Assembly: GCF_041381155.1 (NCBI RefSeq) | Contig: NC_091143.1 | Span: 23,339,695-23,403,694, forward strand | Direction of reading: 5' to 3' | DNA from: Argopecten irradians | Taxonomy: Eukaryota > Mollusca > Bivalvia > Pectinida > Pectinidae | Length of the DNA stretch: 64,000 nt | Shown: positions 20,501 through 57,699 of the stretch, piece after piece | How the letters are laid out: each line of letters starts with the position of its first letter | How positions within the stretch are numbered: the stretch's first letter is position 1 | Notes under the pieces: generated by a model | Databases searched by the model: none | What the model was told of the DNA's origin: nothing | The model's input: only the letters and a program-made list of their open reading frames with translations | Made by a program: the position numbers and the translations under genes

Positions 20501-23500
20501 ACAAGGCAGTGAAGAGTATCAAGATCACTTCAATAAGAGTAAGGGTCAAGGTCATAGCAAGTTCAAAGCATTACACCTGTATGATATATTATGTGATAGA
20601 TCAGACATATTCAGTTTTTTATGTATTAACATGTTTTGTATAATTATGTTGTAACAAAAAAGATAATATTTATTTTGAAAAGACAATATACATGTGATAA
20701 TAAAGAGTATGATAGGCCTAAGTGTAGACAGTACATGCATCTGTCCTGTTTTAGGCGGCAAAACTCGACCCATACAACAGTGAGGCGTTCGTCTATCTGG
20801 GTCACTTCTCCTTAGATGTACAACATGACAAGGTCAAGGCCACAAAATGTTACCAGAAAGCATTTGACCTTGACAATGACAATGAAGATGCTGGTGCTGC
20901 CCTCTGTGATCTTTTGTCAAGTGCAGGCCAAGAGGTAAGTTAGTGTGGTGGAGAAATTTCAAACGTTTTACCTGAAATATTGATATATGAGAGATTTATT
21001 GGAAGGGATGTTGATTGTTGTAGTGACTTTTAGATCCCAATGTATCCAGGTTCATTCATGACAATAATTCCTGGATATGGTCTCAGAATTAATATTTTCA
21101 AAACTCATACATTTCAAGGGATATATACACCATAAAATATTGATATATCTATATACATGTATATTCTAGATGTTAGATGTATTTGCTTTTATAGATATTG
21201 TACTTATTAGAATAAGAAAAAAGTAATTAGAATACCATCATGTACAGCTGGAATGTATCGACTGTATGCACTTTATGCTACTCCATTAGTTGAAAAAATG
21301 ATTTCAAATTAAAAAAAAAAAAGCAACAATATGTACACTGCATGCTTTCTTGTGAAGAGTAAGAAGTCCTAAGAAAGTGTCTTTTAGTGACAGCATTTAT
21401 AATAACTGTTAATGTTATGTTTGGTGACAGGAAGCAGCCCACAACATCATTGTGTCTGTTACATCTAAAGCCAGTGCTGGAAGGTGAGTACTAAGTGTTT
21501 CCATATCAGAACAGCTGTACGATGGTTGGCTAGCTTTATTATTCAGCTTTAATGTGATGTATTTAACAATATAGTCTGTACTAATATTTTGTGTAAAATA
21601 TTAGAACTAAGATACTGTATAGATGTTTAATTTCACAAGAAAACCAAGAAACCGTAATTTCACAAGAAAACCAAGAAAACGTTTTTACAATTTCCTCTCT
21701 CAATTTCATTCTATTATTTGCCAGGAGAAATATATATGTTGTCAATTTCCAATATTGATAAGCTATGCAGGTTATAGTACTTGTTATTCTTTTCATTTAC
21801 ATGTTGATGTCATGTTACCCAGTACTAGAACGATATCAATGTCTTCATTAGTGTGAGAGTATGTTTGTTTGTCTCTAATAGTGCTAAGTGGGCATGGTTA
21901 CGATTAGGACTGTACCAAGTCAAACATGACAGTCCGTCTGTTGCCATCACCAGTTTCCAGTCAGCACTGAGGGCTGACCCTAAAGACAAGTAGGTACATT
22001 CTAGGAGGCGACTTATTTAGGCTTGTTACCCAATCTTTTTGATTATTCATTCAAATAAAATAGAATCAAAAAATGAAAAATGAAAAAAAAAAACCATAAA
22101 TTGATGGTGAATTATCAGTTCTAACAAATGCCAAAATAATAATAAAAATGCTATCTGTTTCAAAACGGCTTAACAAGGGAAGGCCTAAACTGTCGAAATG
22201 AATTCCATTATGAATACAAAATCAATATTCATTCTCAATTATTTATTTTTTGGCAACAGCAGATAAAGATTAGTATATTTTAAAGGTGTTTGGTGTACAC
22301 TGAGTTTTAGCTGTTCTCATTGATTGATACATTGTAAACTGTGCAGGATGATTTTGATGTTGATATCTTGATATATTGACCAATTGTTGCTATTATTGGA
22401 ATCACCAGGTCAGCATTGTGCTTGTGATGTTGCAATGCTCCAGCTAGAATTAATCAAGAAGATGACCTCAGACAAAACTTCTAATAAAGAGGATGCATAT
22501 AGAATATTCCACCAGATATTGTTGTAACAGATTTTCAAATCACATTTGTTTTAGCCATGTATGGGAGTGTTTGGCTGAAGCTTACTTACATAGAGGCAGT
22601 TTAACAGCAGCTCTCAAAGCCTTCACAAAGGCTTCAGAGGTAAGGTCATAAGGTCATAAATATCAAGGCATTCACAGGGGCTTCAGAGGTTAGGTCTTCA
22701 AGGTCAGATTCCTATAAGGCCTTCACAAAGGCTTCTGAGGTAAGGTCACAAGGTCAAATGATCAAGACATTCACAAAGGCTTCTGAGGTAAGGTCACAAG
22801 GTCAAATGATCAAGACATTCACAAAGGCTTATGAGGTAAGGTCTCAAGGTCAAATGATCAAGTCCTTCAAAAATACTTCAGAGGTACGGTCACAAGGTTA
22901 AATTATCAAGACATTCACAAAGGCTTATGAGGTAAGGTCTCAAGGTCAAATGATCAAGTCCTTCACAAAGGCTTCTGAGGTAAGGTCACAAGGTCAAATG
23001 ATCAAGTCCTTCACAAAGGCTTCAGAGGTAAGTTCACAAGGTTAAATTATCAAGACCTTCACAAAGGTTTCAGAGGTAAGGTCACAAGGTCAAATGATCA
23101 AGTTTTTCACAAAGGCTTCAGAGGTACGGTCACAAGGTCAAATTATCAAGACCCTCACAAAGGCTTCAGAGATAAGGTCACAAGGTTAAATTATAAAGAC
23201 CTTCACAAAGCCTTCAGAGGTAAGGTCACAAAGTCAAATTATCAAGACCTTCACAAAGGCTTCAGAGGTAAGATCTTCAAGTTCAGATTCTCAAGGCCTT
23301 CACTATTAGGCTTCAGATGTAAGATGCCAAGGTTAATGGATGAAACCTAATACTAGTAACTAAGGCCTTCGAGGTTATAGGGCAGGCAATGATATATTGT
23401 CCCAAGGTCAAATCTTTGTTATTTCTCTTTGTGAAAACTGAACATTTATCACAATAAGTTATATTGATAAATTAGATGATGCATGGAATGGTCTTGTATA

Positions 23501-26500
23501 AATTACTTATAATGAAGTATTTGTTGTTGAATGCCACATTGAATTTACATCTGAATTTTCTTATTTTTCTTTGAATTCAGTTGGACTCCAACTCCTTGTA
23601 CTGCTTGTATCAGTAAGTAATTATTATAGTCATCTCTTAGTCTGTACAAATATTCATATTTTATTATTTATGTAGATATTTTCTGTGTCAGTATATCATT
23701 TTGCTATCTATTCAATGAAATGCGAAATCAGTAGGCTTGTTGTTAAAATAGTGTTCAATGACTCCAAGGATCTAAAACCGCTGATTTCTTTATTAGTTGT
23801 CAATGTATTATAGTATATACATGTATTTACTGTATTTCCCCAGAATTGCTGCTATAAAACAGACACTGTGTATGTACACAGAAGCCATTGTCGAGTACAA
23901 AGTTATCCTGGACCGCTCGCCAAACTACGTACCGGCTCTGAAGGGTCAGTACTGTATAAGTACAAATCAAGTTTTGGCTGATTGTATTTAGTTACTGTAA
24001 ACCAACTTATTTTCACACTTTAATGCATCAAGGCCTCTTCTCACAGCGATTTAATTTCATAATGTAGAATAAATTGATTGTTCTTTAACTATGATTAGAA
24101 AAATGTTGCAGCGATTATTTTTAGCTCACCTGGCCCGAAGGGCCGGTGAGCTTATGCCATGGCGCGGCGTCCGTCGTCCGTCGTCCGTCCGTCCGTCCGT
24201 CCGTCTGTCTGTCCGTCAACATTTCCTTTAAATCGCTACTAGTCATAGAGTTCTGCATGGATTGTGACCAAATTTGGCCACAAACATCCTTGGGGGAAGG
24301 GGAACAGAACTTGTATAAATTTTGGCTCTGAGCCCCTGGGGGCAGGAGGGGCGGGGCCCAATAGGGGAAATAAAGGTAAATCCTATAAATCGCTACTAGT
24401 CATAGAGTTCTGCATGGATTGTAACCAAATTTGGCCACAAGCATCCTTGGGGGAAGGGGAACAGAACTTGTATAAATTTTGGCTCTGAGCCCCCGGGGGC
24501 AGGAGGGGCGGGGCCCAATAGGGGAAATAAAGGTAAATCCTATAAATCGCTACTTGTCCTAGAGTTCTGCATGGATTGTGACCAAATTTGGCCACAAACA
24601 TCCTTAGGAGAAGGGGAACAGAACTTGTATAAATTTTGGCTCTGAGCCCCCGGGGGCAGGAGGGGCGGGGCCCAATAGGGGAAATAAAGGTTAATCCTAT
24701 AAATCGCTACTTGTCCTAGAGTTCTGCATGGATTGTGACCAAATTTGGCCACAAACATCCTTAGGAGAAGGGGAACAGAACTTGTATAAATTTTGGCTCT
24801 GACCCCCTGGGGGCAGGAGGGGCGGGGCCCAATATAGGAAATAAAGGTAAATCCTATAAATCGCTACTAGTCATAGAGTTCTTCATGGATTGTAACCAAA
24901 TTTGGCCACAAACATTCTTTGGGGAAGGGGAACAGAACTTGTATAAAATTTGGCTCTGACCCCCCGGGGGCAGGAGGGGCGGGGCCCAATAGGGGAAATA
25001 AAGGTAAATCCTATAAATCGCTACTAGTCATAGAGTTCTGCATGGATTGTAACCAAATTTGGCCACAAGCATCCTTGGGGAAGGGAAACAGAACTTGTAT
25101 AAATTTTGGCTCTGAGCCCCCGGGAGCGGAAGGGGCGGGGCCCAATAGGGGAAATAAAGGTAAATCCTATAAATCACTACTTGTCCTAGAGTTCTGCATG
25201 GATTGTGACCAAATTTGGCCACAAACATCCTTAGGAGAAGGTGAACAGAACTTGTATAAATTTTGGCTCTGAGCCCCTGGGGGCAGGAGGGGCGGAGCCC
25301 AATAGGGGAAATAAAGGTAAATCCTATAAATCACTACTAGTCATAGAGTTCTGCATGGATTGTAACCAAATTTGACCACAAACATTCTTTGGGGAAGGGG
25401 AACAGAATCTGTATAAATTTTGACTCTGACCCCCCGGGGGCAGGAGGGGCGGGGCCCAATATGGGAAATAAAGGTAAATCCTATAAATCGCTACTTGTCC
25501 TAGAGTTCTGCATGGATTGTGACCAAATTTGGCCACAAACATCTTTTGGAGAAGGGGAACGGAACTTGTATAAATTTTGGCTCTGACCCCCCGGGGGCAG
25601 GAGGGGCGGGGCCCAATAGGGGAAATAAAGGTAAATCCTATAAATCGCTACTAGTCATAGAATTCTGCATGGATTGTAACCAAATTTAGCCACAAACATT
25701 CTTTGGGGAAGGGGAACAGAACTTGTATAAATTTTGGCTCTGACCCCCCAGGGGCAGAAGGGGCGGGGCCCAATAGGGGAAATAAAGGTAAATCCTATAA
25801 ATCGCTACTTGTCCTAGAGTTCTGCATGGATTGTGACCAAATTTGGCCACAAACATCCTTGGGAGAAGGGGAACAGAACTTGTATAAATTTTGGCTCTGA
25901 CCCCTTGGGGGCAGGAGGGGCGGGGCCCAATAGGGGAAATAAAGGTAAATCCTATAAATCGCTACTAGTCATAGAGTTCTGCATGGATTATAACCAAATT
26001 TGGCCACAAACATCCTTGGGGGAAGGGGAATAGAGCTTGTATAAATTTTGGCTCTGACCCCCAGGGGGCAGGAATGGTGGGGCCCAATAGGGGAATTAGA
26101 GGTAAATATTCAAATTTCTTCAGAAAATAAACAATGAACCTGTATCCAGAATATTACTTGGCATTACAAACCAGGTGAGCGATACAGGCCCTCTGGGCCT
26201 CTTGTTTGTGGTATCTCTTCTCTCACGAAAACAACAAAATTTAATTGCATGCAAAAATTAGTTGGTGTACATTTAATTTAGTCTTAAATTATTTTGTTTC
26301 CTTTTCTATTTTACACACAACCTTCTTAATATAAATCTATATTATATACAATGAAAATTCTATTTTCTGTAAAAGAAATAAAGGCTTAGTTTTTTGTAAT
26401 ATTTATTATTTGTCAGTATTTTCTTCATTCATATGATAACTAAGAACATCATGTTGACTACCCTATGCCTCAGGTGTTGGAGAGACTTATATATTACTAG

Positions 26501-29500
26501 CCAGGAGTCACCTGTCACAGAGTTTCTACGGCCGAACTCGAGAAAACTGTGAGAATGCCCTACTGTTTCTCACTAGGTAAATAACAGTTATAAGTATATG
26601 TTTGTTTACAATAAAATAAAAACTTTTCATTTAAAGCTTAATGTATATTGAACTCAGAAGATGGTTATTAGAGAAATCAAATGACTTTTAATATTATCTT
26701 GTAGTGGTTAATGATACAATTGATTGTTAGGTTTAAGATCAACTTGTAAGACATTAGACTAACAGTTTTAATCTATTTTGCGTGTGTTTGCTTGTTTACA
26801 GAGCTGCCACCCATCGACCTGACTTGTCCTGTTTATGGAAGCTGATGGGCGATGCCTGTACACTGGTCCATAGACTGGCACCAGAAACCTTCAGCTTTAC
26901 CGTGGATAATAAGCTGGTGTCTAAGTCAGGAGAAACATGTCCCACAGGGACCTCCAAAATAAGTCTGATACAGACAATAGAGCTTGGATCAAGGTACAGA
27001 CTACCTCAAGTATATCACCAAGAAATGAATAGAAAGTCCTGTCTGACATGTTTTTTTTACCTTTTCAGATTTGATTTTAGTCTGATAGAAAGAAATTTAA
27101 TAACATCTACCTTGAAATTTGTTTATTAATTATATCTTCGAAAATCCTTTATATTGGATAATTCCTTCATTGTTATAAAAGTGGGCCCAGTTAACTTAAG
27201 GAATTCATTAACTTATAATCTCACATAGGAAAGCATTACAATGTTTAAGGAAAAAAATTTAAATTAAGGAATTTTCTTAAAATTCTTTAAGCTTTCCTTT
27301 GGGAAATCTTCGGAAAATCTGTACCTAATATTTTCTGTTTGTGATGAATTGTAGGTGCTATGGACGAGCTTTGAAGGCACTCCCAAATTGTGCCTCATTG
27401 TGGCATGACCTAGGGGTCAATTTCTTCTACCAATCACAGCAGTCGACACAAAGTGACATGATTGCAACACTATCAACAAAAGCTGTAAATGCTCTTAAGA
27501 AAGCTTTGAATATCGATCCTAAAAACCATCTTCATTGGAATGCTCTTGGAAGGGTGTACTGTTCACAAGGTAAGAAATCCTTGAATATTGATACTAAAAA
27601 CCATCTTCATTTGAATGCTCTTGGAAGGGTATACTGTTCACAAGGTAAGAAAAGCCTTGAATATTGATGCTAAAAACTATCTACATTAGAATGTTTGGCT
27701 GTCTTTATAATGATTCAATTGATTGAATTCTCGGATGTGTTTTATGACTGTTTCTACTTAGACTATTGTTTCTGAAAAAGGTCATCAAAATTTGCTTTTG
27801 ATTATAAAGAAAACATGAGGTTAGTTTGTGAATTCAAGTTTAAAGATGCTCCACCGCTGACAAATAGTATTTTTTCTCAATCAAAAACAGGAGCAGATGA
27901 TTTAGTATTTTTCTTCAATTACAAAAGTTACCTACTTTACACCATTACCAACATTGAAAAGTTTCAGCTTCTAATTTTACTTCAAGTTAAAGATATGAAA
28001 AAGAATTAATTGCATGCCGAAAAAAATCCATGGCACTATATCCTATATGGAATGAAGTACTGATTGTGCCTGCACCAAAGGCAAAATAATCTTTTTTTAT
28101 TTTTTGTGTTAATTATATATACACAATTAAACACCAATTATTGTTCAAAAGATGAATATCATTTATGCTCTGTTAGCGTTGGAGCATCTTTAAGCTTTGG
28201 AGTTGCATACTGCTACAATTATGTTGACGTAAAAATGTATATGAAAGGGTTTAATCAATATGATTGTTCTTATAAAATTTCCAGGATGTTACCAGCCAGA
28301 CAAAGCCCAACACTGCTTCATAAAGTCCATCCAGACAGAGGCAAACGTAAGATGACCTAGAAGTTGTTTACTGAATACTGATAACAATACATATATAAGA
28401 TATAAAGAGATATTAAAGACAATGATATGAATTTTATGTTACATGTGTAATATTGTTAACAGTCAAATTTATAAAATATTGAAAATATATGGTATCAATG
28501 ATTAATAGTTAAATTCAATAAAAAAGTATTTTTAGTACTTAATGTTGCAATAACTGCATCTTTTTCTTTTGTTTTCAGAATGTGGTGGCTTGGTCCAATC
28601 TGGCAACACTTTATTTTAAAAATGGCAACATAGAGGTAGAGTACTTATATAATAGTTAGAATATCATGTTATTCATTTTTCAATTGTGGTTCATGAAAGC
28701 TGACCTGTATTAGAGTAAAGACTCTTTGTAGTGGAGTGCTTGTAGTTTGCACTTCGGAAAAACATCCTTGATTTCTGTATTTGACCTTGTAACTATCGAG
28801 TATGAATTCTTGTGATCATGCTGTTACCTGAACGGATTTCATTTTCATTCTGTAAGTCGGTTCATTATGTGAGTGATTGTGTTTCTCTTTCAGCGTGCTA
28901 AAGATGCCTTACATGTAATTCTATTTGTAAGGTATGTTCATAGCTATGTTTCTCTTTTCCAGCTTGCCCACGATGCATTTAAAACTGCCCAGAGTCTAGA
29001 ACCATCTTATGTGGCCTGCTGGATTGGACAGGTCAGTATACACTTCTAGACACTTCTCATGAATTACTTATAATTAGTAGGTACATGTTACACTTCTGGA
29101 CACTTCTCATGAATTACCCAGAATACTCATATTTGACCAAGAGCATGCCAAGTATGTTCAAATGAATGACCTCGACCTTCATTCAAGGTCACAGGGGTCA
29201 AATAGGCTAAAATCTTTAAACAACTTCTTCTTAAGAACAGAAAGGCCCAGCTAGGATACTCCTATTGGGCCTGCGGCATGCTGGGTTAAAGGGCTACCAA
29301 ATCTGTTCAAAGGAATGACCTTGACCTTTATTCAAGGTCACAGGGGTCAAATAGGCTAAAATCTTTTTAAATTAGTTGTGATGAGGGAGGAAAGTTGGTA
29401 TACATTATATGATATCAAAGGAATTAAAATTTACTGAATAGATAATACTTCAATGATATGACACTTCAATGATATTGTCATGAATAAGTCATCCTTTAGA

Positions 29501-32500: not shown

Positions 32501-35500
32501 GCTAATTCTCAGAAAGTACTGAAGGGATCTTTCTCAAATTTTCATATGTAGGTTCCCCTAGGACCCCAGTTGTGCATATTGCATTTTGGGACTGATCGGT
32601 CAACAAGATGGCCGACCGGTGGCCATCTTGGATTTTGATAGTTAAAGTTTGTTACCGCTATTTCTCAGAAAGTATTGAAGGGATTGTTCTCAAATTTCAT
32701 ATGTAGGTTCCCCTAGGACCCTAGTAGTGCATATTGCATTTTGGGACTGATCAGTCAACAAGATGGCCGCCAGGTAGCCATCTTGGATTTTGATAGTTAA
32801 AGTTTGTTACCGCTATTTCTCAGAAAGCACTGAAGGGATCTTTCTCAAATTTCATATGTAGGTTTCCCTAGGACCCCAGTTGTGCATATTGCATTTTGGG
32901 ACTGATCAGTCAACAAGATGGCCGCCAGGTAGCCATCTTGGATTTTGATAGTTAAAGTTTGTTACCGCTATTTCTCAGAAAGCACTGAAGGGATCTTTCT
33001 CAAATTTCATATGTAGGTTCCCCTAGGACCCCAGTTGTGCATATTGCATTTTGGGACTGATCGGTCAACAAAATGGCCAACCGGTAGCCATCTTGGATTT
33101 TGATAGTTAAAGTTTGTTACCGCTATTTCTCAGAAAGTATTGAAGGGATTGTTCTCAAATATCATATGTAGGTTCCTCTAGGACCCTAGTTCTGCCTATT
33201 GCATTTTGCGACCACCATCTTGGATTTTGATAGTTTAAAGTTTGAAAAGCAGAAAAAAGAAGTGTAAGTTTGAAAAGCAGAGAAAAGATCCCTCTTTCAT
33301 TTGTCAGACATAGATCAATCTTTGGTGGGCGCCAAGATCCCTCTGGGATCTCTTGTTTCTGTAACCATGGAAACATTGCTGAAAATGGCAGATTTTTGTG
33401 TAAGAATCGTTTCCGGAGCACAACTCTAAAACCAGCAGAGATATTTCCATGAAACTTCATAGACACATTGTTCTGATGGTCTAGTAGTGCCTTTTGCTAT
33501 TTTTAGGTTTTCACTTTTTGTGCTTTTTTCTGTAACCATAGAAACATTGCTGAAAATATCATATTTTTGTAGCAGGTTCATTTCCGGAGCATAACTCTAA
33601 AACCAGCAGAGATATTTTCATGAAACTTCATAGGCACATTCTTCTTACTCCCTTTATAACACTGTCATTGTACTAGTTATAAACAGGTTAATAGTTTTTC
33701 ACCTATATGCTTCACATTCATAAAACTATTCACCTTGCTGTATCTGCACTTACCAGAAAAGAAAGAAAAACATTTGGATTATATTCGTGGCAGTGTTATT
33801 TGGTGGATGAAAGAAAACACGAATTTAAAACTGCGGTCAAATTTGAATGATATATGTATCTTAAGACATTAGACAACACAGTCCTTGAATTTAATACTGC
33901 ATGGAGTAAAATATTTAAAAAAAAAAACGGGAAAATTATCGCCAACAAATGTCAAGGCTGTATACCTGATTCAACAATTGCAGCCCCGCTCTACTTGAAT
34001 TATACTCCATCTTTCTTTAGCTCAACTTCCTTTTTCCTGTTTTTTTTTCATATACATAAGTCTCCACAATCAAACTTACTTCAGCTTTGATATCTCCATT
34101 GGCGGGGGATCTGAATGACTATGTCCTTGTCTTTCATTGTTATTGTTTGTTTATTTATTTCTTATAGTTTGGTTTTCTAGTGGTTTATAAAGTGTAATGA
34201 ATTCATGTACTAAATAAAGAGAAAAATTTTGACTAGATCCAAGACAAAAAGCTGAATTCCACATTCACTCTAGGCTGCTAACATGAAATGATATAACTCA
34301 AACATATTTTGTTGTAATATATACATTGACCTTTTAGCTTCACTTCATCTGAAACTCAATAACATTATCCAATATTGTATGATAATGATCTTTCTCCCTA
34401 GTGTACACTTCTGCCCTGGCCTTAGCTGAAACAGAAGAAGACCAATCACATGTGTCTGTTGCCTTGGGAATGGTCCACTACGGGGCAGGAGATCTGGAGA
34501 CGACCAAATCTGTCCTGTTCCAAAGGTCAGTTCTAACTCTTTGGTAACACCTGATAGACTTAGAAAGGATCTTTTATCCCTATATGATCAATAGACAGTT
34601 TCAATCATAATGGCTAGATTCAATATTGCTTCTGAAGAATCTCAAATAACTATTGTAAATGAATAAGTATCTAACACAGATATTTGTCTGTCTACTTAGA
34701 CATTTCTCATGTTTGTAAGTTATCAGTTGCTTCTTTTATGAATGTTATATGATTCATCATACCGTATTTGACCCAATAAGCACCTTTTGGTCCTTGTTTA
34801 TGCATGGGCAATTGAAACTTAGGCCTCAAAAAAGGGGGAGGGCGTTTATAGGGACATGGTCACTTATTGGGTCGTATAGGGTAACTGTATAATTTTCCAG
34901 TTCTCAGTTATGTTGGAGATTTTACAGTGAAATATTTGTATACTCACTGTACGTCACTTATGATTTTTCAGTTCTCATTTCTGTTTCACATTCTATATAA
35001 ATAAATATTGGTAAACTGTATGATTTCCAGCTCCCAAATGAATCCACCATCAAGGACAGGCCTATTGGCCTTGTGTGCCCTAGGGATCCTTCAGACAGAT
35101 TTGACCTTGACCTTGGCTGTCCTTCAGGAACTATTAGCAGGGGAAGGCTCCACCAGTCAGTCAGATGTGGCTCACCTCATGTCATCTGCTAACGCTGTTA
35201 TTGAGGTAAATCAGGAATCTGCTTTACAAAATTTAGAGATATATGAGGTAGTTTTTGTTATGTCTAGTAGATAGTAAACATTTCGTCTTCGGATAGGGCA
35301 TGAGTTTGTGTTATAATGAAAAAGTTTGTCATCTGTATTTCTTTGATAATTTCTTTGATATGATTGTGATATGTGTATAATGAATAATGCTTACAGTGAA
35401 GTGATATTGTTGGTCCACAAAGATTTGTTATGATCGTGTTTTACTGTATTGAGAAAGTGTTCTAAATATTTATTATTTTTAGGGTAATCCACGAGCAGCT

Positions 35501-38500
35501 AAGAACTTTGTACAGCAGTGTATCCATAAGTATCCAGATCAGTTGGACCTGTGGCGCCTCCTAGGGTCAGTCCTTGTTACACATTGCCATGACAATGCTT
35601 CCGTAGCTGGTGCTGCCACCTGTGTACAAAAAGTGTCTTCATTAAACCCGACATCACCGGTAAGTAATAATGATCAATGGTTATATAAAAGTTTGTTTTT
35701 AGCTTGAGTTGGTTGGAAAATCAAATAACGTTTTTCTCAGAGCCTTTTGTTATTGATTTCCAGCCTTATTTCATGTCATTTATATTAATGTTTGGCATAA
35801 CACCAGAGAAATCATGTTAGAATTATTGCTACGTTTTTTTTGTATTTCTTTTGAGGAAATTAAAAGTCAAATATATTTGTTGTTAAAATCAGATACTGGT
35901 GTTAGTGTTAATGAATATTAAACAAAACATTCTACATAAATGTTCTCAGGACATTATGAAGTTGGCAACCAGTGCTCAGTTAGCAGGTGGACATTACAGT
36001 AGGACTCGCAGGAACGGAGTGTTGTCGAGCGCTCAGAAGGCAGTACATCTAAACCCAGGTAGGTACACCTACATATTATCAGCTTCATTTTAAAAATGTC
36101 GAAGGCCACTTTCACACTGATGCATAGAAAAGAATAATGCTTATGTGTTGGTTTTGTTTGATTTTAATTTTAACACATATTCTTGAATCAATAATTATGC
36201 TGAAGAAAAGTTCAAAAAGTACATAGGTACATTTGTTGTAACAAAAGATTGAGTTGGTTTGAATGACATGAATAAGATCATAGTTAGAGATATCATAAAC
36301 ATTATCTTAACAAGTTTATAATTATCAAATATATCGTTGAAAATTACACAATGCTACATGAAGAAGTATACAACTAATGTTTTCAGTAAGATAACATGAA
36401 TACTCTATTTCAGACCAAAAAGATAACTGGGTGAACTTAACAGCAGCCATCCACAGTCACACTGTACTCCACAAGTCAGACAAACTCGTACAACTGGCTC
36501 TGGTCTATCTCAACTGGCTCTCTGTAACATTCAATGGTAAGTTACATTGGTAAAAACGTATGCCATATATTTTTCATACTTTAAGCTACCAGTTTTTGCC
36601 TGAAAATCCAGAGTCCTGCTTATGATCCAGTGCTGCTTATTTGTTAGCAAAAACTGAAATCAGACTATGGTTTGAAGAAAAAAGTTGTGATTTGGACCAA
36701 CTCAATTGACTCTCAATTTTTAGCCCACTATCATCAGATGGTGGGCTGTTCAAATCGCTTTTTGGCCGTGGTCCTTTCGTCCGTCTTTCCATTCGTTAAC
36801 AATTCTTGTTACCGCTATTTCTCAGAAAGTACTGAAGGGATCTTTCTCAAATTTCATATGTTGGTTCCCCTAGGTCCCTAGTTGTGCATATTGCATTTTG
36901 GGACCAATCGGTCAACAAGATGGCCGACAGGCCACCATCTAGGAATTTGATAGTTAAAGCATGTTACCAATATTTCTCAGAGAGTGCTCAAGGGATCTGT
37001 CTCAAATTTTATGTGCAGGTTCCCCTAGGTCCCTGGTTATGCATATTGCGTTCTGGTACCGATCGATGAACAAAATGGCCGACAGAACGCAATCTTGGAT
37101 TTTGACAATTGAAGTTTGTTAACGCTATTTCTCAAAAAGATCTTGTTTAATGTTTTCTTTAAAGTTAATGCTTAATATCTCATCATAAACTATGGGATAC
37201 TATATTCTTTGCGAAGAAAATGATTATAAATCTCACAACATCTATGAAATTAATCACAAAAGCTGTAATGTGGTACTTAATTTCATTGCAATTTAATTCC
37301 GAGATGTAGATTTACATGGTTTAACAGGTCCTGTGTATAAGACATTTTTATTTCTACTAATTTCGTGATTTGTAATCTCTTGTGAAATATGCAAAATTTA
37401 ATCTCAAAATTAAGCTAGTCTAAAGCAATTGAAATTGATAAATATATATTTTCAACTTTTGATGCAAAATTCATTTTTTCATTATTTTTTTTTACTTAAT
37501 ATTACTATCAGAAGCTCCAGCCATGGTGACAAGTTGGTGTAAAAAACAAAGAGTTATTTCCCTTGTTGAAGCAGGCAGAGTAGATGAAGCAGCATCCTTA
37601 ATTAGTCAGGTGAATTCTTCTTGAAACAATAAGCATTGTATACATAGTTTTAGGCAGAACTTAAAATTGATAATTTTATATTATAATGAAAGACTTTATT
37701 TTCTTTTGATTGCACATACTATTTTTATATTTGCATAAAATAAACAGTATTTACAGTACAATAAGGGGAATTGCTAGAACCTGTAAAGGGTTTATTGCAC
37801 TTGATATGATATTTTCAGCTACATGTTGGTGTGTTCTTGTGTATCAATTGTTTGAATTGAAAATGTTCAGTTGAAGTGTAACAGTTATAATATTCTCTAC
37901 TTACTGTTTGTTCTTGTGTGTATGCATATATTGTTTGACTCGAATGTTTAGTTGAAGAGTTGTGGAGATGAAGAATTGGAAGATTTTGCCGCGGTGATAG
38001 AGGCGGTGATTGATGGAGATATAGGTGCTATGTCAGAACAGCTACTCAAGTCACGTGACAATCCGTTCCTGGTGGAGGCTCTGTTAGAGACGTGTGAACG
38101 GGGAGGTGTTAGTGTGAACCTCACTGACATACTAGGAGTGGACCAGGAGGACAGAGGGTGAGACTGTTAAGGAATTAGGTTGTGGGTTTGTGGGTTTTAT
38201 TAGTTTAACGTCCTATTAACAGCCAGGGTCATGTATGGATGTACCAGGTTTGTTGCTAGAGGAAAGCCAGAGTACCGGGAGAAAATCCACCGACCAGCGG
38301 TCAGTACCTAGCAACTGCCCCACATTGGATTCGAACTTGCAACCCATAGGTGGAGGGCTTGTGGTAATATGTCGAGACTTCTTAACCACTCGGCCACGGT
38401 AGCCCCTCAGGAATTAGGAAATCTGAATGTAATAGGTTTAAATTAAGTAAGTTTATAAATAAATATTTTAGTCATTTATTTTAATTGTATTTACAATGAT

Positions 38501-41500
38501 CTTGATTGATATAGAGTATCTCTTGATATATATCAATAGTTATCGTCTCCTGCTAGTATGATATTATTTGAGAATTCTTACCCCTTTTTTTCCAGACGGA
38601 GGGTTGATCTGATTTGTAAAGTTCTACATGTGTACTACATATACCAACAGGCTAAGGTAATTATCGTGTTTATCAGCCACCAAACCTTTCAATGACACTA
38701 GCCATACATGTTGATTGGATTGAAGTGAATGACTATTTTACCACTCCATGCCTTGTAATACCAGATGAATTTTATATTTTAATTGTTACAGTTTCTTATT
38801 TTAAAGATATGATAATTAATATGATTAAAGAATGTGAAATACTAACCCTGCATTTTAATGAAGATTCCACTTGATGGCGTGAATATGAATATTACAATAC
38901 TGTGGTGATCCAATAGGTATTATTAGAGTTGTGATTATTTTGTTTAAATGAGCTATGTCCAAGTTAAAGTTTTGCTTCGTCCATCAGAGGACTGGTGTTG
39001 TGGATGACCTTGAAGGCCTGTTGAAGAAGCCAGTGATAGATGTACAAACTCTGGACTCTCACTGTTTACCAGTTATGTTGGTCCTAGCCGCTGCAACATT
39101 GGCAACCAACCCAAGGTATGTCTCTATAGGCCACAGTCAAATGTAACCAACCAACCCAAGGTATGTCTCTATAGGCCACAGTCAAATGTAACCAACCAAC
39201 CCAAGGTATGTCTCTATAGGCCACAGTCAAATGTAACCAACCCAAGGTATGTCTCTATAGGCCACAGTCAAATGTAACCAACCAACCCAAGGTATGTCTC
39301 TATAGGCCACAGTCAAATGTAACCAACCAACCCAAGGTATGTCTCTATAGGCCACAGTCAAATGTAACCAACCAACCCAAGGTATGTCTCTATAGGCCAC
39401 AGTCAAATGTAACCAACCAACCCAAGGTATGTCTCTATAGACCACAATCAAATGCAACCAACCAACCCAAGGTATGTAACCAATCCAAGGTATGTCTCTA
39501 TAGGCCACAGTCAAATGTGACCAACCAACCCAAGGTATGTCTCTATAGGCCACGGTCAAATGTAACCAACCAACAAATGGTATGTCTCTAAAGACCCTGG
39601 TCAAAATCACAAACCAACCAGAGATGTATCTCTATAGGCCACAGTCAAATGTTACCAACAAACCCGAGGTATGTCTCTATAGGTTCTGTCAGTTATTTTT
39701 AATCAGCTAAGGACAATCCCCTCCTTTTTCCTTTGCTATTATAAAAAAAAATTCCAAAATATTGTTTTATGTCATTCCTTTAATTACTACAATTAAATAT
39801 TATCCCAATTCAAGCTAAAATTAACCCTGGCCAATGTCTCAAAGATTGATGCCACCAGTTTCTGCACAGATTATCAAAAGTTCAGTTGGGACCCTCACCT
39901 GTCTGTGGACAATCATGCCTTGTATTTCAACAAGCTAAACAATGATGGAACATGCTTATAAGATTGTTGGTACAGAGGCTGTCAAAGCATTGTGTGGGAC
40001 AAAACTTAAAGATGGTGATTGTGATCTCGTACGAAAGATTTATCTGATCTTAAAGGGTCTCCCTAACTACAATTAAACTACAGCTTCATATCATTTACAC
40101 AGGAAAAAGTGCATACAGGTTTTACGTATGTTATAAACCGCATGTTAAACGCATGTAGAGGACCACGCATGTAAAACGTACGTATGAAACGTATGTAATA
40201 CGTGTGTTAAACATGCGTAATATGCATGGTAAACAGACGTAAAACGTTTCAAAACATGTGTTATAAATACGTTTGATCCTATTACAAAATCCACCTTTTT
40301 TTAAATGTTTTATGTATATTTACATGGTCTTTGAAGTTGCACCATATATTTGTCATTTTCAAAAGTAAAGTTTAAATCCATTTTATTTGTATTATCGGTT
40401 CCTGTCCAATGACTGATATTTTTTCATACATAGTATGTTGTATTTACAAACGAGTGCCTACATATTGATAAAGGAGAATGTACGTTAAGACTCGAATATG
40501 GCCGCAAAATTAATTATCCAGTAAAGAACAACATATTTTGCCATATTACAGTTGAATACATTTGCTAACACATTACATCCCGAAAATATCCCGCATGTGC
40601 CAATTATGTTCACTATGACGTCATCAACATGCAGTTTCGCGCCATTTATCACAAAAATCCTTGAAAAATCATACTGTTTGAGTGTTTTTTTCTAAAAATG
40701 AATGTGGCTGCCTTCGTAGAGCAGAAAGAGATTTTCACACGTTGTATATCATGTATTTACGCATATCCATGCATAATATAAAGTTGCTCCAAGGTGGCGG
40801 CCAAATCCATTTCAAGCCTTTTCTAACCTAAAGATGATGAATTTCTAGCAAAATTTGGCGAGAGGAGGAAAATCATCAATTTGATTACGTCATAGGTGGA
40901 GCACATCGTGTACATGGTTAAAAAAAGTTATGTTTTGATGAATGGCAAGTATGAGAGTATTTATTAATGTGAAATTGATGTGGATCAGAGTTAATATTTT
41001 TCGGCCTGAAAAATTAAGGCCAAACATATACTGTTCCTATCATATCTACTCCTTTCATAATCTTAGGATGATTTTATTTTTTCTACATCAATTTGTCCAT
41101 AACGTCACTTCATCACTTACATTTTTAGGTCATCTGACCCGAAGGGTCAGGATGACCTATAGTCGTCATGTTTCGTCCGTCGCCGTCCGCCGTGCGCCGT
41201 GCGCCGTGCGTTAACTTTTCACATTTTGAACTTCTTCTCAAGTTCTACCAGTGCAATTTGGCTGAAACTTGCATGAAATGATCCTGCCATGGTCCCGACA
41301 AAGTGTTGTTATTTTTTGGGTCGATCCGAAATCCAAGATGGCCGCCACAGCCGCCATCTTGAAAACACATTTTGAACTTCTTCTCAAGTTCTACCGGTGC
41401 GATTAGGCTGAAACTTGCATGAAATGATCCTGACATGGTCCCGACAAAGTGTTGTTACTTTTCGGGTCGATCCGAAATCCAAGATGGCCGCCACAGCCGC

Positions 41501-43875
41501 CATCTTGAAAACACATTTTGAACTTCTTCTCAAGTTCTACCGGTGCGATTTGGCTGAAACTTGCATGAAATGATCCTGACATGGTCCCGACAAAGTGTTG
41601 TTACTTTTCGGGTCGATCCGAAATCCAAGATGGCCGCCACAGCCGCCATCTTGAAAACACATTTTGAACTTCTTCTCAAGTTCTACCTGTGCGATTTGGC
41701 TGAAACTTGCATGAAATGATCCTGACATGGTCCCGACAAAGTGTTGTTATTTTTCGGGTCAATCCGAAATCCAAGATGGCCGCCAAAGCCGCCATCTTGA
41801 AAGCACATTTTGAACTTCTTCTCAAGTTCTACTGGTGCGATTTGGCTGAAACTTGCATGAAATGATCCTGACATGGTCCCGACAAAGTGTTGTTATTTTT
41901 CGGGTCGATCCGAAATCCAAGATGGCCGCCACAGCCGCCATCTTGAAAATACATTTTGAACTTCTTCTCAAGTTCTACCGGTGTAATCGGGCTGAAACTT
42001 GCATGAAATGATCCTGACATGGTCCCGACAAAGTGTTGTTATTTTTCGGGTCAATCCGAAAACCAAGATGGCTGCCACAGCCGCCATCTTTAAAACACAT
42101 TTTGAACTTCTTCTCAAGTTCTACCAGTGCGATTTGGCTGAAACTTGCATGAAATGATCCTGACATCGTCCCGACAAAGTGTTGTTACATCTCTGGTTGA
42201 TCCCAAATCGAAGATGGCTACCATGGCACTATATCTAATTAACTTCCTACATGTTAAGGCCCTTTGGCCTCTTGTTTGAAAGAAAATTTGTTGAAAGAAA
42301 TTGAAAATGATCCTGACATTGTCCTGACAAAGTGACACCATATGAAATTAAATTTACCATTGCCAAGGTAGTCAGATGACCGGTAAGGCCCTTTGGGCCT
42401 CTTGTTAATAAAGGCTTAAATCTTTACTAAAGTCGTGCCCACTGTTCAATTGTTTTCAAATTCTGGCTCAGTGAGTCCAAACAACAGTTGTAGACCTACT
42501 ACATTGTACATCATGAAGCGCTGGTCAGCTGACATTGATCATATGTATAGAATTAAAATTTAAAAAGACGGAATCCACATTAGCGGTTTTGCTTCTGTTC
42601 ACAATCAGTAGATGTGCATATAATTGTATACCTATGTATCATCATACGATATTGAAGCTGCATTATTCTATCATGAGGCTAGTATGAGGTTCACTATAAG
42701 TTGGTAGAAGACATATATAGATAACATGAAACCAAAAACATAGAGGCTATTAACATGTATTTGCTTATGGGAATATCATTTTTGAAAAAAAAACCCACTG
42801 CAAGTCTTCAATAACAATGATAAAACTAATGTTTTACATGTAATTAGTAGGGTTAATTTAACAGACGTCCATTTTACATGTGATGGAAAACAAACGTACG
42901 TAAAACATATGTTAAACATACGTTTAACGCATGTTTTTTCAAACGTATGTTAAACATGCGTTGCACTTTTTGCTGTGTACTATTTAAAAATCTTTCCAAA
43001 TTGTCAACAAAATGTTTTCTAAATAATGATGAAATTTGTTAATTTCTCCTAAAGTCCCTGATTGAAGTTTGGTGTGTCAATTTACAAACTTAAGGCAAAC
43101 CCAATTGATATTTTCTCTTTATATCGATTACCTAACTTTCTGTTACAGACTAACAAAGCACTGTGTTGTAAAAGTAAGTGAGGGGCGACACCTACAGATG
43201 GACAAGTGTGACGAAGTGTCTATAGCCAGATGTCTCCTCATCAAACTCATATACAACCCTAAAAAGGAGTCGGAAGCTCTCAAGGTATTTTAAGTCTCCT
43301 ATCAAACCCTTATACATCCCTAAAAATAGTTAGAAGCTCTCATAATAAGTCTCCCATTAAACTCCTATACATCCCTAAAAACAGTTAGAAGCTCCTAAGG
43401 TAAGTGTCCTATCAAACTCCAAGGCATCGAAAAAAAAAATAGAAGCCCTCAAGGTAAATCTCAACAATTCATATACAACCCTAAACACACATATTTGAAA
43501 ACAATTTTGCCATTTTTTCTAAACTTTTGCCATGTTTTTATGAATGATGCAGGATAAAAAGATCAATTTCTTTTTGTCTCGAATCAGAAAGAAAAGAAGA
43601 ATATGATGATCACCAATCCAATTCTTCATTTACACTTGCAGAAATATAACATCTATTTTCAGACATGCACGTATTCTCTATAGAAATGAAGGCATGATTG
43701 GCCCCATATAAAAGAATTGTGTGCTATGTTGGTATATTGTTCACACGGTATATTGTTTACAGAACTATCTCCATCTCTATGTATACCATTTCAGAAACTG
43801 TTGGTAGAGGTAGAAGAGGAAGGAGATGTAACTGTCCAGGAATTCTACAAACATTTGTCTAACCAAAATGGATAA
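14508..43875 (+). CDS. SKIC3: SKI complex subunit 3 (tetratricopeptide repeat protein 37), 39 coding exons, complete
   Basis: Scaffold of the cytoplasmic SKI complex, which with the helicase SKIC2 and WD40 protein SKIC8 feeds mRNA to the exosome for 3'-5' decay. Identified by continuous similarity to remembered human TTC37: the N-terminus [20 protein letters not shown], then [68 protein letters not shown] and [13 protein letters not shown], spread in order over the whole length. The protein is mostly TPR helices; no signal peptide or membrane segment. Coding exons (GT/AG, phases all compatible): 14508-14597, 15555-15790, 16200-16272, 16477-16602, 16991-17089, 17381-17492, 17779-17913, 18547-18648, 19100-19242, 19374-19451, 19716-19801, 20363-20495, 20755-20934, 21431-21483, 21882-21989, 22555-22639, 23581-23612, 23844-23944, 26474-26576, 26802-26993, 27355-27569, 28285-28346, 28579-28635, 28963-29031, 29641-29715, 30063-30204, 30583-30748, 30996-31123, 34402-34525, 35031-35205, 35483-35659, 35950-36058, 36414-36536, 37512-37609, 37952-38157, 38596-38656, 38988-39115, 43149-43284, 43795-43875. 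The sum is 4,599 nt, 1,532 codons plus TAA. The ATG sits 25 nt after an acceptor, so at least one 5' non-coding exon lies upstream. Confidence 0.95.
17528..17715 (+). repeat. (TTCA)n microsatellite in SKIC3 intron 6
   Basis: A nearly perfect tetranucleotide tract with a few interruptions near 17555-17590. It lies between exon 6 and exon 7, about 60 bp upstream of the exon 7 acceptor. Confidence 0.97.
17953..18130. mobile_element. MITE family 1 copy in SKIC3 intron 7
   Basis: Same ends as the 9.5-kb copy (TTGCATATTACAGAGTTATC and TAACTCTGTAATATGATGCAA) with GCGGGTAGGTATTGAT near the left. The central part is more diverged. Confidence 0.78.
20303..20324 (+). repeat. poly-C tract in SKIC3 intron 11
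   Basis: A run of about 20 cytosines, 40 bp before the exon 12 acceptor. Its exact length is likely uncertain in the assembly. Confidence 0.9.
22616..23335 (+). repeat. 48-bp minisatellite built from the end of SKIC3 exon 16 and its splice donor
   Basis: About 15 units with period near 48 bp. The first unit is the real 3' end of exon 16 (CTTCACAAAGGCTTCAGAG) followed by the donor GTAAGG. Most later units repeat the same exon tail and an intact or near-intact GAG/GTAAGG donor, then a short linker ending ATCAAGAC. Read on in the exon frame, the first unit reaches TAA at 22649, so only the first donor keeps the protein open; the others are potential decoy 5' splice sites. Confidence 0.93.
24121..26206. 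mobile_element. palindrome-ended tandem-core element (pearl/HINE-like), 12 x 157 bp, in SKIC3 intron 18
   Basis: Left end is the hairpin GGCCCGAAGGGCC within AGCTCACC...GGTGAGC, followed by a (CCGT)n tract at about 24165-24220. Then come about twelve direct units of 157 bp, each with CATAGAGTTCTGCATGGATT and a G-rich GGGGGCAGGAGGGGCGGGG stretch. The right end is GGTGAGCGATACAGGCCCTCTGGGCCTCTTGTT, containing a second hairpin. This order matches what is known of pearl/HINE (Helentron-associated) elements of bivalves, read in the opposite direction. It has no coding capacity of its own; the repeated open frames across it are by-products of the 157-bp unit. Confidence 0.8.
27495..27692 (+). repeat. 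75-bp tandem duplication of SKIC3 exon 21 end including the donor
   Basis: The last 75 nt of exon 21 plus the GTAAGA donor (GT at 27570) are repeated directly downstream with a second GTAAGA donor (GT at 27645). A third, shortened copy runs to about 27692. The duplicated stretch encodes a TPR helix segment containing [16 protein letters not shown]. The 75-nt unit is a multiple of three and has no stop, so splicing from the second donor would add 25 residues in frame. Confidence 0.92.
27839..28193. mobile_element. MITE family 2 copy in SKIC3 intron 21
   Basis: Ends TTTAAAGATGCTCCACCGCT and GCGTTGGAGCATCTTTAA. Interior like the copies at 6.7 and 53.2 kb. It stops about 90 bp before the exon 22 acceptor. 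Confidence 0.83.
28882..28982 (+). repeat. duplicated acceptor and 5' end of SKIC3 exon 24
   Basis: A copy of the polypyrimidine tract and AG (ending 28893), followed by CGTGCTAAAGATGCCTTA, lies 69 nt before the true acceptor (ending 28962), followed by CTTGCCCACGATGCATTT. The 69 nt between the two acceptors have no stop in the exon frame. The upstream site would therefore add 23 residues in frame (beginning RAKDAL, like the exon's own LAHDAF). Confidence 0.7.
29138..29365. repeat. two diverged 150-bp direct units in SKIC3 intron 24
   Basis: AATGACCTTGACCTTCATTC and AGGTCACAGGGGTCAAATAGG recur 150 bp apart. Unit length and style suggest a remnant of another tandem-core element without visible ends. 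Confidence 0.6.
31182..34130. mobile_element. palindrome-ended tandem-core element (outer, interrupted) in SKIC3 intron 28
   Basis: Begins with the hairpin CCCGCCAACGAAGTTGGCGGG-like end (31183-31206) and a (CCGT)n tract (31224-31268). Tandem units of about 175-180 bp follow, marked by GTAACCATGGAAACATTGCTG and GCATAACTCTAAAACCAG. The array is interrupted at 31904 by a second element and resumes at 33358. Beyond 33650 the sequence is no longer repetitive, and a GGCGGGGGATCTGAATGACT stretch near 34101 probably marks the right end. That boundary is less certain than the left one. Confidence 0.7.
31905..33357. mobile_element. palindrome-ended tandem-core element nested in the 31.2-34.1 kb element, 8 x 155 bp
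   Basis: Left hairpin CCCACCATCATCAGATGGTGGG, then (CCGT)n to about 32018, then eight 155-bp units with TTACCGCTATTTCTCAGAAAG and a paired AAGATGGCCGAC / GCCATCTTGG motif. The right end is TGGTGGGCGCC...CCCTCTGGGATCTCTTGTT. It lies inside a T run of the outer element's unit; a sibling unit at about 31,550-31,570 shows the uninterrupted T run. The insertion therefore made little or no target duplication, as expected for Helitron-type insertion between T residues. Confidence 0.82.
36722..37147. mobile_element. short copy of the CCCACCATC-hairpin tandem-core element in SKIC3 intron 33
   Basis: Same family as the element at 31,905: a CCCACTATCATCAGATGGTGGG hairpin, a degenerate CCGT tract, then about 2.5 diverged core units with TTACCGCTATTTCTCAGAAAG and CAAGATGGCCGAC. 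It ends abruptly in AGATCTTGTT, so the right terminal hairpin is largely missing. Confidence 0.8.
38180..38408 (-). mobile_element. tRNA-derived SINE in SKIC3 intron 35, antisense to the gene
   Basis: On the minus strand it starts GAGGGGCTACCGTGGCCGAG followed by TGGTTAAG (A box), has GGTTGCAAGTTCGAATCC (B box), and then a TTTTCTCCCGGTACTCTGG core like that in the SINE at 49.9 kb. The flanks AGGAATTAGG (38,170-38,179 and 38,409-38,418) form a 10-bp target duplication. Confidence 0.85.
39105..39690 (+). repeat. 45-bp minisatellite built from the end of SKIC3 exon 37 and its splice donor
   Basis: About 13 units, mostly 45 bp. Each contains the exon tail ACCAACCCAAG followed by the donor GTATGT and a spacer with TCTATAGGCCACAGTC. 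The first unit spans the real end of exon 37 (39115). The exon frame meets TAA within the first spacer, so use of later donors would truncate the protein. A few units are shortened or mutated toward the right end. Confidence 0.93.
40098..42977. mobile_element. TA-flanked inverted-repeat element, host of the 41.1-42.4 kb insertion
   Basis: CACAGGAAAAAGTGCA at the left pairs with TGCACTTTTTGCTGTG at the right, each flanked by TA. Both ends have subterminal repeats of the kind ACGCATGTTAAACATACG (40,125-40,260 and 42,890-42,965). Without the palindrome-ended insertion the element would be about 1.6 kb. No transposase reading frame is visible, so it is non-autonomous. The superfamily is not resolved; TA duplication fits Tc1/mariner and some others. 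Confidence 0.6.
41127..42406. mobile_element. palindrome-ended tandem-core element, about 7 x 146 bp, in SKIC3 intron 37
   Basis: Left hairpin GACCCGAAGGGTC within GGTCATCT...AGGATGACC, a CCGTCGCCGTCCGCC-like tract, then about seven 146-bp units starting CATTTTGAACTTCTTCTC. Each unit has CCAAGATGGCCGCC followed by GCCGCCATCTTG. Two copies of the right-end palindrome AAGGCCCTTTGGCCTCTTGTT occur (about 42,255 and 42,385), so the right end has been duplicated or a second truncated copy adjoins. The final GTCAGATGACC mirrors the left GGTCATCTGAC. Confidence 0.82.
43233..43490 (+). repeat. degenerate tandem copies of SKIC3 exon 38 end and donor
   Basis: The last 52 nt of exon 38 and the following donor are repeated about four times with spacing of 54-62 bp. 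Each copy shows a TCTCCTATCAAACTCC-like start, a CATCCCTAAAAA middle and an AGAAGCTCTCAAG-like end, two of them followed by GTAAGT or GTAAAT. The copies are more diverged and carry short deletions, so this looks older than the exon 16 and 37 arrays. Confidence 0.85.
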
Positions 43876-56256: not shown

Positions 56257-57570
56257 TCACAATAAAGCTGTAAAGAATGCGCCCACCAAAATAAGATCTA
56301 TGGCCGAGAACAAACAGAAAAAGAAGCCATCTAGAGCTGCAGATACATTGGACCACGTGTAGATGTCATTTGCATTCCCCTCCTCGTCAAAATGTGGGTC
56401 TGAACAAAGCTGGGATGAATCCGAACTATTGTTGGTAGTTGCGACGTATGGGGAAGATTCCACAACGTTATTCATTGCATCGCTAAATGGGGGTATTGTC
56501 TTAGTCTCCTTGTTGTCTATTGGTTTAACTCTCTTTCTGGGGCAAGTATTTGTTCTTTTGCTCATCTTTACAATACATCTAAAGAACGGCGATAGTTCTG
56601 TGCTGTCCGGGCGGTGGTGAAGCCTCACCTGGGCAACTGTCACCATGACGATGGCGGTCCCTTTGATCATAAGACTAATCACATACACAGCCAGGTAAGA
56701 CGAAGTTCGGGAATTGACAGGTAAGGACGAACTGACTATAGTAAGAAGAACGGCAAACGACAGATGGACAGTCATACTGTATCCTATTTTCTCGCCACTG
56801 TCAGCAGGAATAACGAACGTAAAAATGTCCAAAACGGAAAGTAGGATGATGGGACAGATGATAGTTAGGATGTAATACTCAGGCTTTCGGTCCAATTCTA
56901 GAGCGACAACGATATTGCCATGTCTTATTCTGATGGATGCGTTGTGAAGATCCCAAACCCCGTTTTTTTCGTATATCTCTGTTTGTAATGGTGAATCTGT
57001 TCAGGCTAATCGAACATCAGCCAGCCTGTATGTCCACATCCTGAATTCAAGGTTACAATATTGCCTATCGAAAGGAAATTTCGTTATATCAATGTTACAC
57101 TTGGTCTCAAAAACTTCCAGTGGATTCCAAACTACGTCTCCATTATAATTGACCGTTACCAGAATCACCTTATCACCTAATTCTGTTAGTTTAGTGAAGC
57201 CGTTCTGTAAGGAGATGTCTGGTTTCCATACCTCGTCCTGTGTGATATACAAGTACGATATGTTATGGTGGCTCCTTATATCCCATGTAAGAAATTCGTC
57301 CTTCCATTCCAGCTGCATGTTGGCAGTGGTGGCTAATTTCTCCTCTACCTCGTCCAGTGAGTTGATGCCCTGTAGGAAGAATGTAATGTTCACTACGATC
57401 GGAATGTTAAGTTTTGTATGAGGTGGGGTGTTCTTATTGTATGCACGAGTTGTAAATAAATCTGTGTATAAATGTTTTAAATCATACCCTGTCTGTGCAG
57501 TAGCGACTTGAATCAAGAGACCCATCCAATACAGATCAAGTACCCATGTGCATCCGGTGACCATTGACAT
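56257..57570 (-). pseudogene. Cys-loop receptor gene with one in-frame stop (nAChR-like)
   Basis: Single-exon copy read from ATG at 57,570 (signal peptide MSMVTGCTWVLDLYWMGLLI...) to TGA at 56,257, about 437 codons. It has VNITFFLQGINSLDEVEEKL, DEVWKPD, the Cys-loop CNIDITKFPFDRQYC, four membrane segments and the GEK motif before TM2. The only visible lesion is a TGA at 57,003-57,001, where the intact paralogue has TTA (leucine) in LALTD; frames on both sides are continuous. It could be a recent pseudogene, a null allele or an assembly error. It is more diverged from the other two copies, with a different intracellular loop, so it is an older paralogue. An upstream in-frame ATG at 57,687 would bypass the signal peptide and is unlikely. 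Confidence 0.85.
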
Positions 57571-57699
57571 TTTGATTGTGAATGTTGAATATGGCTCTTC
57601 AAACTTCACTTTGGCAGTCTGAATCAGGATATTATGCACAGTTTCCAGGTCCCAGTCACCTAAATGATGACTGGTTACTTCCTCCAAAGCACTGTCATG

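Follow-up and report, generated by a model that had tools for sequence, protein, structure and literature searches.

Tandem arrays that begin in exon ends and carry 5´ splice sites into the introns of a scallop SKIC3 gene, with similar arrays at other genes

Why should several introns of one gene open with tandem copies of the end of the preceding exon, 5´ splice site included? The question is raised by SKIC3 (TTC37) in a scallop genome, within the 64,000-nucleotide stretch of DNA analysed here (the window; C10:23339695-23403694 of the scanned assembly, which has 846 Mb in 1508 contigs). Splice sites for the gene were chosen by hand, and the resulting model has GT-AG borders at 38/38 introns and a spliced frame of 1532 codons with a terminal stop only. 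A PDB sequence search matched the protein to SKIC3 chains 9g8o_B and 7qdr_B (E ~4e-254) over residues 1-1336. The printed part of the alignment with human SKIC3 excludes extra units after exon 16 and after exon 21 for want of space, and at these two exons it is accordingly the first donor that is conserved. As the PDB match stops at residue 1336, the assignment of the first donor at exons 37 and 38 comes from the reading frame only. The coding region and the four exons concerned, placed by the gene model and copy alignments, are as follows (positions within the window).

14508..43875, + strand: SKIC3 (TTC37) coding region, 39 exons and 38 introns, 1532 aa (spliced frame, PDB match)
22555..22639, + strand: exon 16, whose final 20 bases form the founder end of a 48-bp array
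27355..27569, + strand: exon 21, of which the last 74 bases are copied
38988..39115, + strand: exon 37, of which the last 13 bases are copied
43149..43284, + strand: exon 38, of which about the last 54 bases are copied

A preliminary description of this locus had reported tandem repeats across the exon/intron borders of exons 16, 21, 37 and 38, and all four were confirmed by TRF and by border-spanning alignments, with z computed against 60 shuffles per border (score-30 rows spanning 15 to 30 or -30 to -15 in the alignment scan are self-matches and were disregarded). In each array the first copy starts in the exon tail, crosses the donor and ends in the intron (a slash marks the border in the donors given below).

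22620..23323, + strand: array 1, 48-bp units made of the exon 16 tail, GAG/GTAAGG and intron, 14.5 copies, 84% matches (TRF)
27496..27693, + strand: array 2, 75-bp unit, 2.6 copies, 90% matches (TRF, border alignment)
39103..39683, + strand: array 3, mostly 45-bp units, ~12 copies, 96% matches over 39103-39477 (TRF)
43232..43485, + strand: array 4, ~55-bp units, 3-4 degenerate copies, 79-80% matches (TRF, border alignment; also delimited as 43232-43462)

The border alignments gave z = 20.7 for array 1 (exon 16), 43.1 for array 2 (exon 21), 22.3 for array 3 (exon 37) and 14.8 for array 4 (exon 38). Array 1 holds 13 further GT donor-like copies, seven of which match the authentic 9-mer exactly, and the 11 copies recovered from it are 78-91% identical to the founder. 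The second donor of array 2, AAG/GTAAGA at 27645, is identical to the first, the frame is open to that point, and the two copies recovered have 85-92% identity to the founder. Among the decoy donors of array 3, 10 are identical to AAG/GTATGT and two are variants; 10 copies were recovered (86-100% identity to the founder), the units also carry the acceptor-like TCTCTATAG, and unit deletions are visible within the array in this one assembly (an offset of 131, not 135). For array 4, two copies were recovered with 82-89% identity to the founder, and donor scores from a matrix built on SKIC3's own 38 donors were 12.8 bits for the decoy at 43400 (AAGGTAAGT), 9.8 for that at 43454 and 7.9 for the authentic donor at 43284 (AAGGTATTT). 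Given four different units and unlike divergences from the founder, the arrays look like separate events that differ in age. Weaker duplications were detected at further SKIC3 borders, including a two-copy repeat across the exon 30 acceptor with a score of 26 (threshold 34).

29030..29130, + strand: weak fifth donor-side duplication, at exon 24, starting 2 bases before the donor (score 42, z 12)
28880..28985, + strand: weak two-copy duplication over the exon 24 acceptor (score 30, below the threshold of 34)
37849..37962, + strand: weak two-copy duplication over the exon 35 acceptor (score 31, below the threshold of 34)

Do the extra donors have a coding or regulatory role? Read-through meets an in-frame stop 9 bases into the intron after exon 16, 28 bases after exon 37 and 6 bases after exon 38, with the next donors located at +49 and +100, +45 and +115, respectively. 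In three of the four arrays the stop therefore precedes the next donor, and a unit length divisible by three is without coding meaning there; that some of the unit lengths (48, 75, 45 and ~55 bp) are multiples of three was accordingly discounted. Exon 21 alone stays open beyond its second donor (+75, that is, +25 aa). Its in-frame copy changes Ala to Ser and Trp to Leu at two residues common to the exon and human SKIC3, changes that, to judge from the sequence, look neutral.

Conservation of the donors was assessed in six arrays, those at SKIC3 exons 16 and 37 and four from other loci that had been found by donor word (L037, L050, L053 and L065). Compared with the rest of the unit, the donor 9-mer was less variable in three arrays and more variable in three, and the windows of the same width that were at least as conserved as the donor numbered 17/48, 34/45, 26/50, 46/48, 31/42 and 12/41. 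In the L050 array, the site switches between GTTAGT and GTAAGT. With no special conservation of the donor columns in these six arrays, the decoy donors are probably neutral, having at most a slight influence on fitness. This result, along with the seven and 10 identical donors kept in arrays 1 and 3, supports the earlier proposal that decoy 5´ splice sites are tolerated.

The same data bear on the idea that the arrays have been selected, with the extra donors regulating SKIC3 through poison read-through or in-frame isoforms, or with U1 sites shielding long introns from premature polyadenylation. Retention of a strong donor in many copies would suit such a function, as would the 25 aa that the second donor of exon 21 would add in frame, and the U1-site version could account for donor-word arrays without a visible exon (L050, L072, L074). 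Against it stand the lack of special conservation in the donor columns, the alteration of two residues shared with human in the exon 21 copy and the immediate stop in three of the four arrays, and we regard a selected function as highly improbable. A separate point concerns exon 38, where use of the 12.8-bit decoy at 43400 in place of the 7.9-bit authentic donor at 43284 would lead to an early stop; the site is a candidate for leaky splicing. It also carries a warning for annotation: gene finders may choose the wrong copy of such an array, and at exon 38 the decoy exceeds the authentic donor by 4.9 bits.

Ordinary intronic minisatellites have similar unit sizes and copy numbers, as well as internal homogeneity of the sort found in array 3; the SKIC3 arrays differ from them in a founder copy that is partly coding and bears a splice site. 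Border-spanning minisatellites of this type are not an undescribed kind: they have been published for amphioxus under the name of mirages (PMC3087553, PMC3902484). According to the excerpted text of PMC3087553, these are tandem repeats over exon-intron borders, at both borders, in globin and Adh3 genes, with units of 10-72 bp (Adh3) and 150-160 bp (globin), unstable lengths and RT-PCR results that suggest undisturbed splicing; excerpts of PMC3902484 add PGBD5 and TnC as carriers. As far as these excerpts go, the mirages of Adh3, BflGb6/BflGb9, TnC and PGBD5 are like the scallop arrays in having tandem units, tens of bases to ~160 in length, that span the exon-intron border in several genes of the same genome, with AG/GT signals in many copies. 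In the scallop, units lie over the border at the four SKIC3 donors and at five further exon ends, lengths of 48, 45 and ~55 bp fall within the ranges given in these excerpts and 75 bp falls between the two, and AG/GT signals are found in many copies of the SKIC3 arrays. The two data sets differ in kind: the amphioxus reports, as excerpted, cover both borders, RT-PCR and length polymorphism, whereas ours is the sequence of a single assembly. Unlike those reports, the scallop arrays come with whole-genome counts, in which donor words are enriched and one acceptor word is not. The SKIC3 arrays are thus probably mirage-type minisatellites that recur in the genome, a known kind for which the scallop provides new counts and probably also a new lineage; no mollusc report and no genome-wide count of border minisatellites was found among the matches listed for open-licence PMC papers.

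Mirages in the amphioxus globins have been proposed as seeds of new introns (PMC3087553, excerpted text), and under the Rogers model the SKIC3 arrays could likewise be steps on the way to introns gained by tandem duplication. Their units do hold AG/GT, array 3 has an acceptor-like motif as well, and in both cases an AGGT-bearing segment is duplicated within a gene. However, in intron gain as cited in the excerpted PMC4974935 it is an exonic segment that is copied and a new intron that results, while the SKIC3 segment straddles an existing donor. The SKIC3 frame closes with 38 introns, requiring no new intron or internal exon, and no array-derived exon was found in it. Of the explanations discussed here, this one appears to us the least probable.

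Four arrays among 38 introns had been called striking. To call a border duplicated, we required the 40-bp window centred on it to recur within 800 bp with a score of 34 or more. By this measure 3/38 SKIC3 donors are duplicated (exon 38 fell under the threshold) and 0/38 acceptors. The comparison set consisted of 30 exons anchored by a myosin-head profile, in which 29 donors and 27 acceptors were callable. Duplicated donors numbered 1/29 (L029), or 2/29 with L025, which was left out of the count for its doubtful frame; the L017 donor (31) and the L022 acceptor were below the threshold of 34. Duplicated acceptors numbered 3/27 (L011, L028 and L033), exceeding the donor cases, which argues against a simple donor bias. 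These three loci and, weakly, SKIC3 exons 24, 30 and 35 are evidence that acceptors undergo duplication as well. At L033 (match at C5:36365841-36366026, - strand) a large acceptor-spanning array precedes a myosin-head exon; its units contain TTAG together with a pyrimidine tract and the opening bases of the exon, a mirror image of the SKIC3 arrays.

The background against which these counts are read depends on which copies are tallied. When every copy of every array is included (8-9% of positions), 194/2370 positions in the 30 myosin loci (8.2%) and 126/1664 in four 10-kb regions (7.6%) were duplicated. Since an exon can only be a terminal copy, we used downstream-only or upstream-only backgrounds, which are lower. 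Facing downstream, they were 31/1642 outside SKIC3 (1.9%), 55/1650 in the myosin loci (3.3%) and 60/1128 in the SKIC3 introns (5.3%), which contain transposon-like arrays. For the 4/67 duplicated donors of SKIC3 and the myosin set together, P ranged from 0.04 to 0.48 by the background chosen. SKIC3 does not clearly exceed the local background of tandem duplication; the arrays are real, but with 3/38 donors against 1.9-5.3% of non-exon positions the gene is no clear outlier. These results are compatible with plain chance, by which the genome is rich in tandem duplications, those that straddle a donor are tolerated and four in a long gene are to be expected. Consistent with it, 8.2% (myosin loci) and 7.6% (10-kb regions) of positions have their 40-bp window duplicated within 800 bp, the 3/38 SKIC3 donors are not significant at the higher end of the 1.9-5.3% background, and acceptor duplications also occur.

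Genome-wide word counts point the other way. We counted triples, defined as three copies of a word at 27-57 bp spacing. The donor word AGGTAAG gave 26,185 triples (13,564 + 12,621), compared with 4,145 (1,772 + 2,373) for the reversed word, 7,044 for a word with GT swapped to TG and 5,733 for the reverse of the latter, that is, 3.7-6.3 times the triples of words of the same composition. As single words, AGGTAAG and its reverse differ only 1.28-fold (142,885 vs 111,287). For a second donor word, AGGTGAG, compared in triples only, the excess was 2.8-fold (11,471 vs 4,109). The 11-mer CAGGTAAGTAT, which we take to be the exact complement of the 11 bases at the 5´ end of U1, gave 612 vs 1 but few arrays (three among the matches listed). 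The acceptor word TTTTCAG has a larger excess of single words (270,013 vs 182,256 reversed, 1.48), yet its triples (3,707 vs 3,909, ratio 0.95) reveal no array excess; the genome holds more of this word than composition would predict, yet arrays do not. For another acceptor word, TTTCAGG, triples were 3,455 vs 2,781. Expressed per single word, triples amount to 18% for AGGTAAG and 3.7% for its reverse, and to 1.4% and 2.1% for TTTTCAG and its reverse, respectively. The acceptor tests have lower power on account of low coverage in SKIC3, where TTTTCAG matches 2/38 and TTTCAGG 0/38 acceptors, compared with 7/38 donors for AGGTAAG.

Such counts are of overlapping word matches within arrays and are dominated by long arrays. 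One long 55-bp array (C1:7148401-7154575) supplies all the TTTCAGG matches listed, ~100 in 6 kb. Part of the AGGTAAG array excess only mirrors donor abundance in genes, since the word is common in genic sequence: in 201.5 kb of mostly genic sequence it occurred 61 times vs 26-30 for control words (~2x), a point in favor of chance. Distinct arrays were also counted over matched ranges. Among the matches listed for the first 2.9 Mb of C1, there were four for AGGTAAG (apparently on the + strand only; an array at C1:754207 was excluded as its 58-64 bp spacing is outside the pattern) and three for AGGTGAG, vs one each for the swapped word and TTTTCAG and none for TTTCAGG or the reversed word. Among those listed for the first 5.65 Mb, there were four for AGGTGAG, three each for the swapped word and TTTTCAG, and none for TTTCAGG or the reversed word. 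The AGGTAAG excess holds in this small matched sample, but that of AGGTGAG all but vanishes in comparison with two controls, which also fits chance. The matched recount weakens the donor bias and the single-word count of TTTTCAG strengthens the contrast with acceptors; the two were taken to offset one another. Rate ratios of 10-20 and 3.7 for distinct arrays against GAATGGA (P 0.0001-0.0017) were demoted because they were drawn from unequal ranges: matches for GAATGGA, the lowest control, were listed to 65.8 Mb and those for the other controls to a few Mb only. The control words themselves include real donor arrays, as the swapped-word array at C1:205875 is a donor array of enolase, and 3/9 GAATGGA arrays, read by eye among the matches listed, hold AGGTAAAT, AGGTGTGT or AGGTAGTT. 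On the whole, the excess of donor-word triples beyond that of single words, its recurrence with AGGTGAG in triples and the lack of array excess for the acceptor word TTTTCAG all argue against plain chance, which we consider unlikely. The first and last of these results also lend support to the shared, donor-linked process suggested in the preliminary description.

We then read the upstream flanks of 15 arrays, 13 from donor-word matches and two from swapped-word matches, a small sample from contig C1 and one site on C3 (of 14 AGGTGAG arrays, five flanks, hand-picked, were read). Five of the 15 arrays start at an exon end with homology support.

L053: guanylate cyclase exon end (PF00211, E=1.7e-5)
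L071: biliverdin reductase A, first coding exon (E=8.5e-4, PDB support, no sound Pfam match)
L075: enolase exon end, a swapped-word array (E=1e-10)
L078: UreF exon end (E=5e-5)
L080: agrin/laminin G domain exon end (E=6.6e-5)

In another four flanks the frame is open as far as the donor, but no database match was obtained: peptides of L037 and L065 had none in Pfam, and those of L073 and L081 none in Pfam or PDB. No clear exon was found in five (L050, L072, L074, L076 and L077), and the upstream flank of L079 is still array. With arrays beginning at exon ends of other genes, five of them with homology, the pattern is not peculiar to SKIC3. A SKIC3-specific explanation was ruled out on the same grounds.

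We therefore favor, with a probability of about 0.72, the reading that the SKIC3 arrays are mirage-type minisatellites that arose at 5´ splice sites and are tolerated through use of the first donor. According to this model, a 45-75 bp segment lying by chance across a 5´ splice site would have been duplicated in tandem, after which the array could grow within the intron by slippage or unequal exchange, its copies being free to vary there. The exon copy is the founder and would keep its coding role; the exon-proximal donor would stay in use in the mRNA, and the additional donors would be decoys. Such events may be frequent in the genome and biased to 5´ over 3´ splice sites, and SKIC3, being long and intron-rich, might have caught four of them at different times.

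Is the birth of arrays itself linked to donors? A decoy acceptor lying upstream has a greater chance of use than a decoy donor lying downstream. Tolerance may accordingly differ between the two kinds of border, but cannot alone raise donors above random sites, from which we infer a bias in birth that is linked to the donor. The broader claim, that in this genome 5´ splice sites as a class are birthplaces of minisatellites, with tandem duplication initiated or retained at working donors far above random sites of the same composition, and that acceptors are not, is put forward tentatively, at somewhat less than even odds. If true, it would point away from base composition and to DNA instability linked to the donor, such as events involving U1 or RNA-DNA hybrids during transcription. 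An RNA splice signal would then predict sites of DNA duplication and connect transcription-coupled events to the birth of minisatellites. Introns whose authentic donor is followed by a series of identical or stronger ones also offer a natural experiment on the choice of 5´ splice sites by the spliceosome, and border arrays bear on how often arrays turn into new exons or introns.

Two other features of the window were noted. SKIC3 introns 18, 28, 33 and 37 contain mobile-element-like blocks at 24117-26205, 31178-33360, 36720-37140 and 41128-42412 (limits by eye), with tandem units of 146-170 bp that mostly follow a short C/G-rich microsatellite, for example (CGTC)n; some end in sequences such as CTGGCCCGAAGGGCC and GGCCTCTTG, and at 31178-33360 one block is apparently nested inside another. 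Downstream of SKIC3, long open frames at 47737-48471 (+), 57001-57687 (-) and 60339-61628 (+) match Pfam Neur_chan_LBD (E 7e-35 to 3e-39), the last also matching Neur_chan_memb, and a frame at 56257-56895 (-) looks related to them by eye, such that Cys-loop receptor-like genes with long open exons form a local cluster there.
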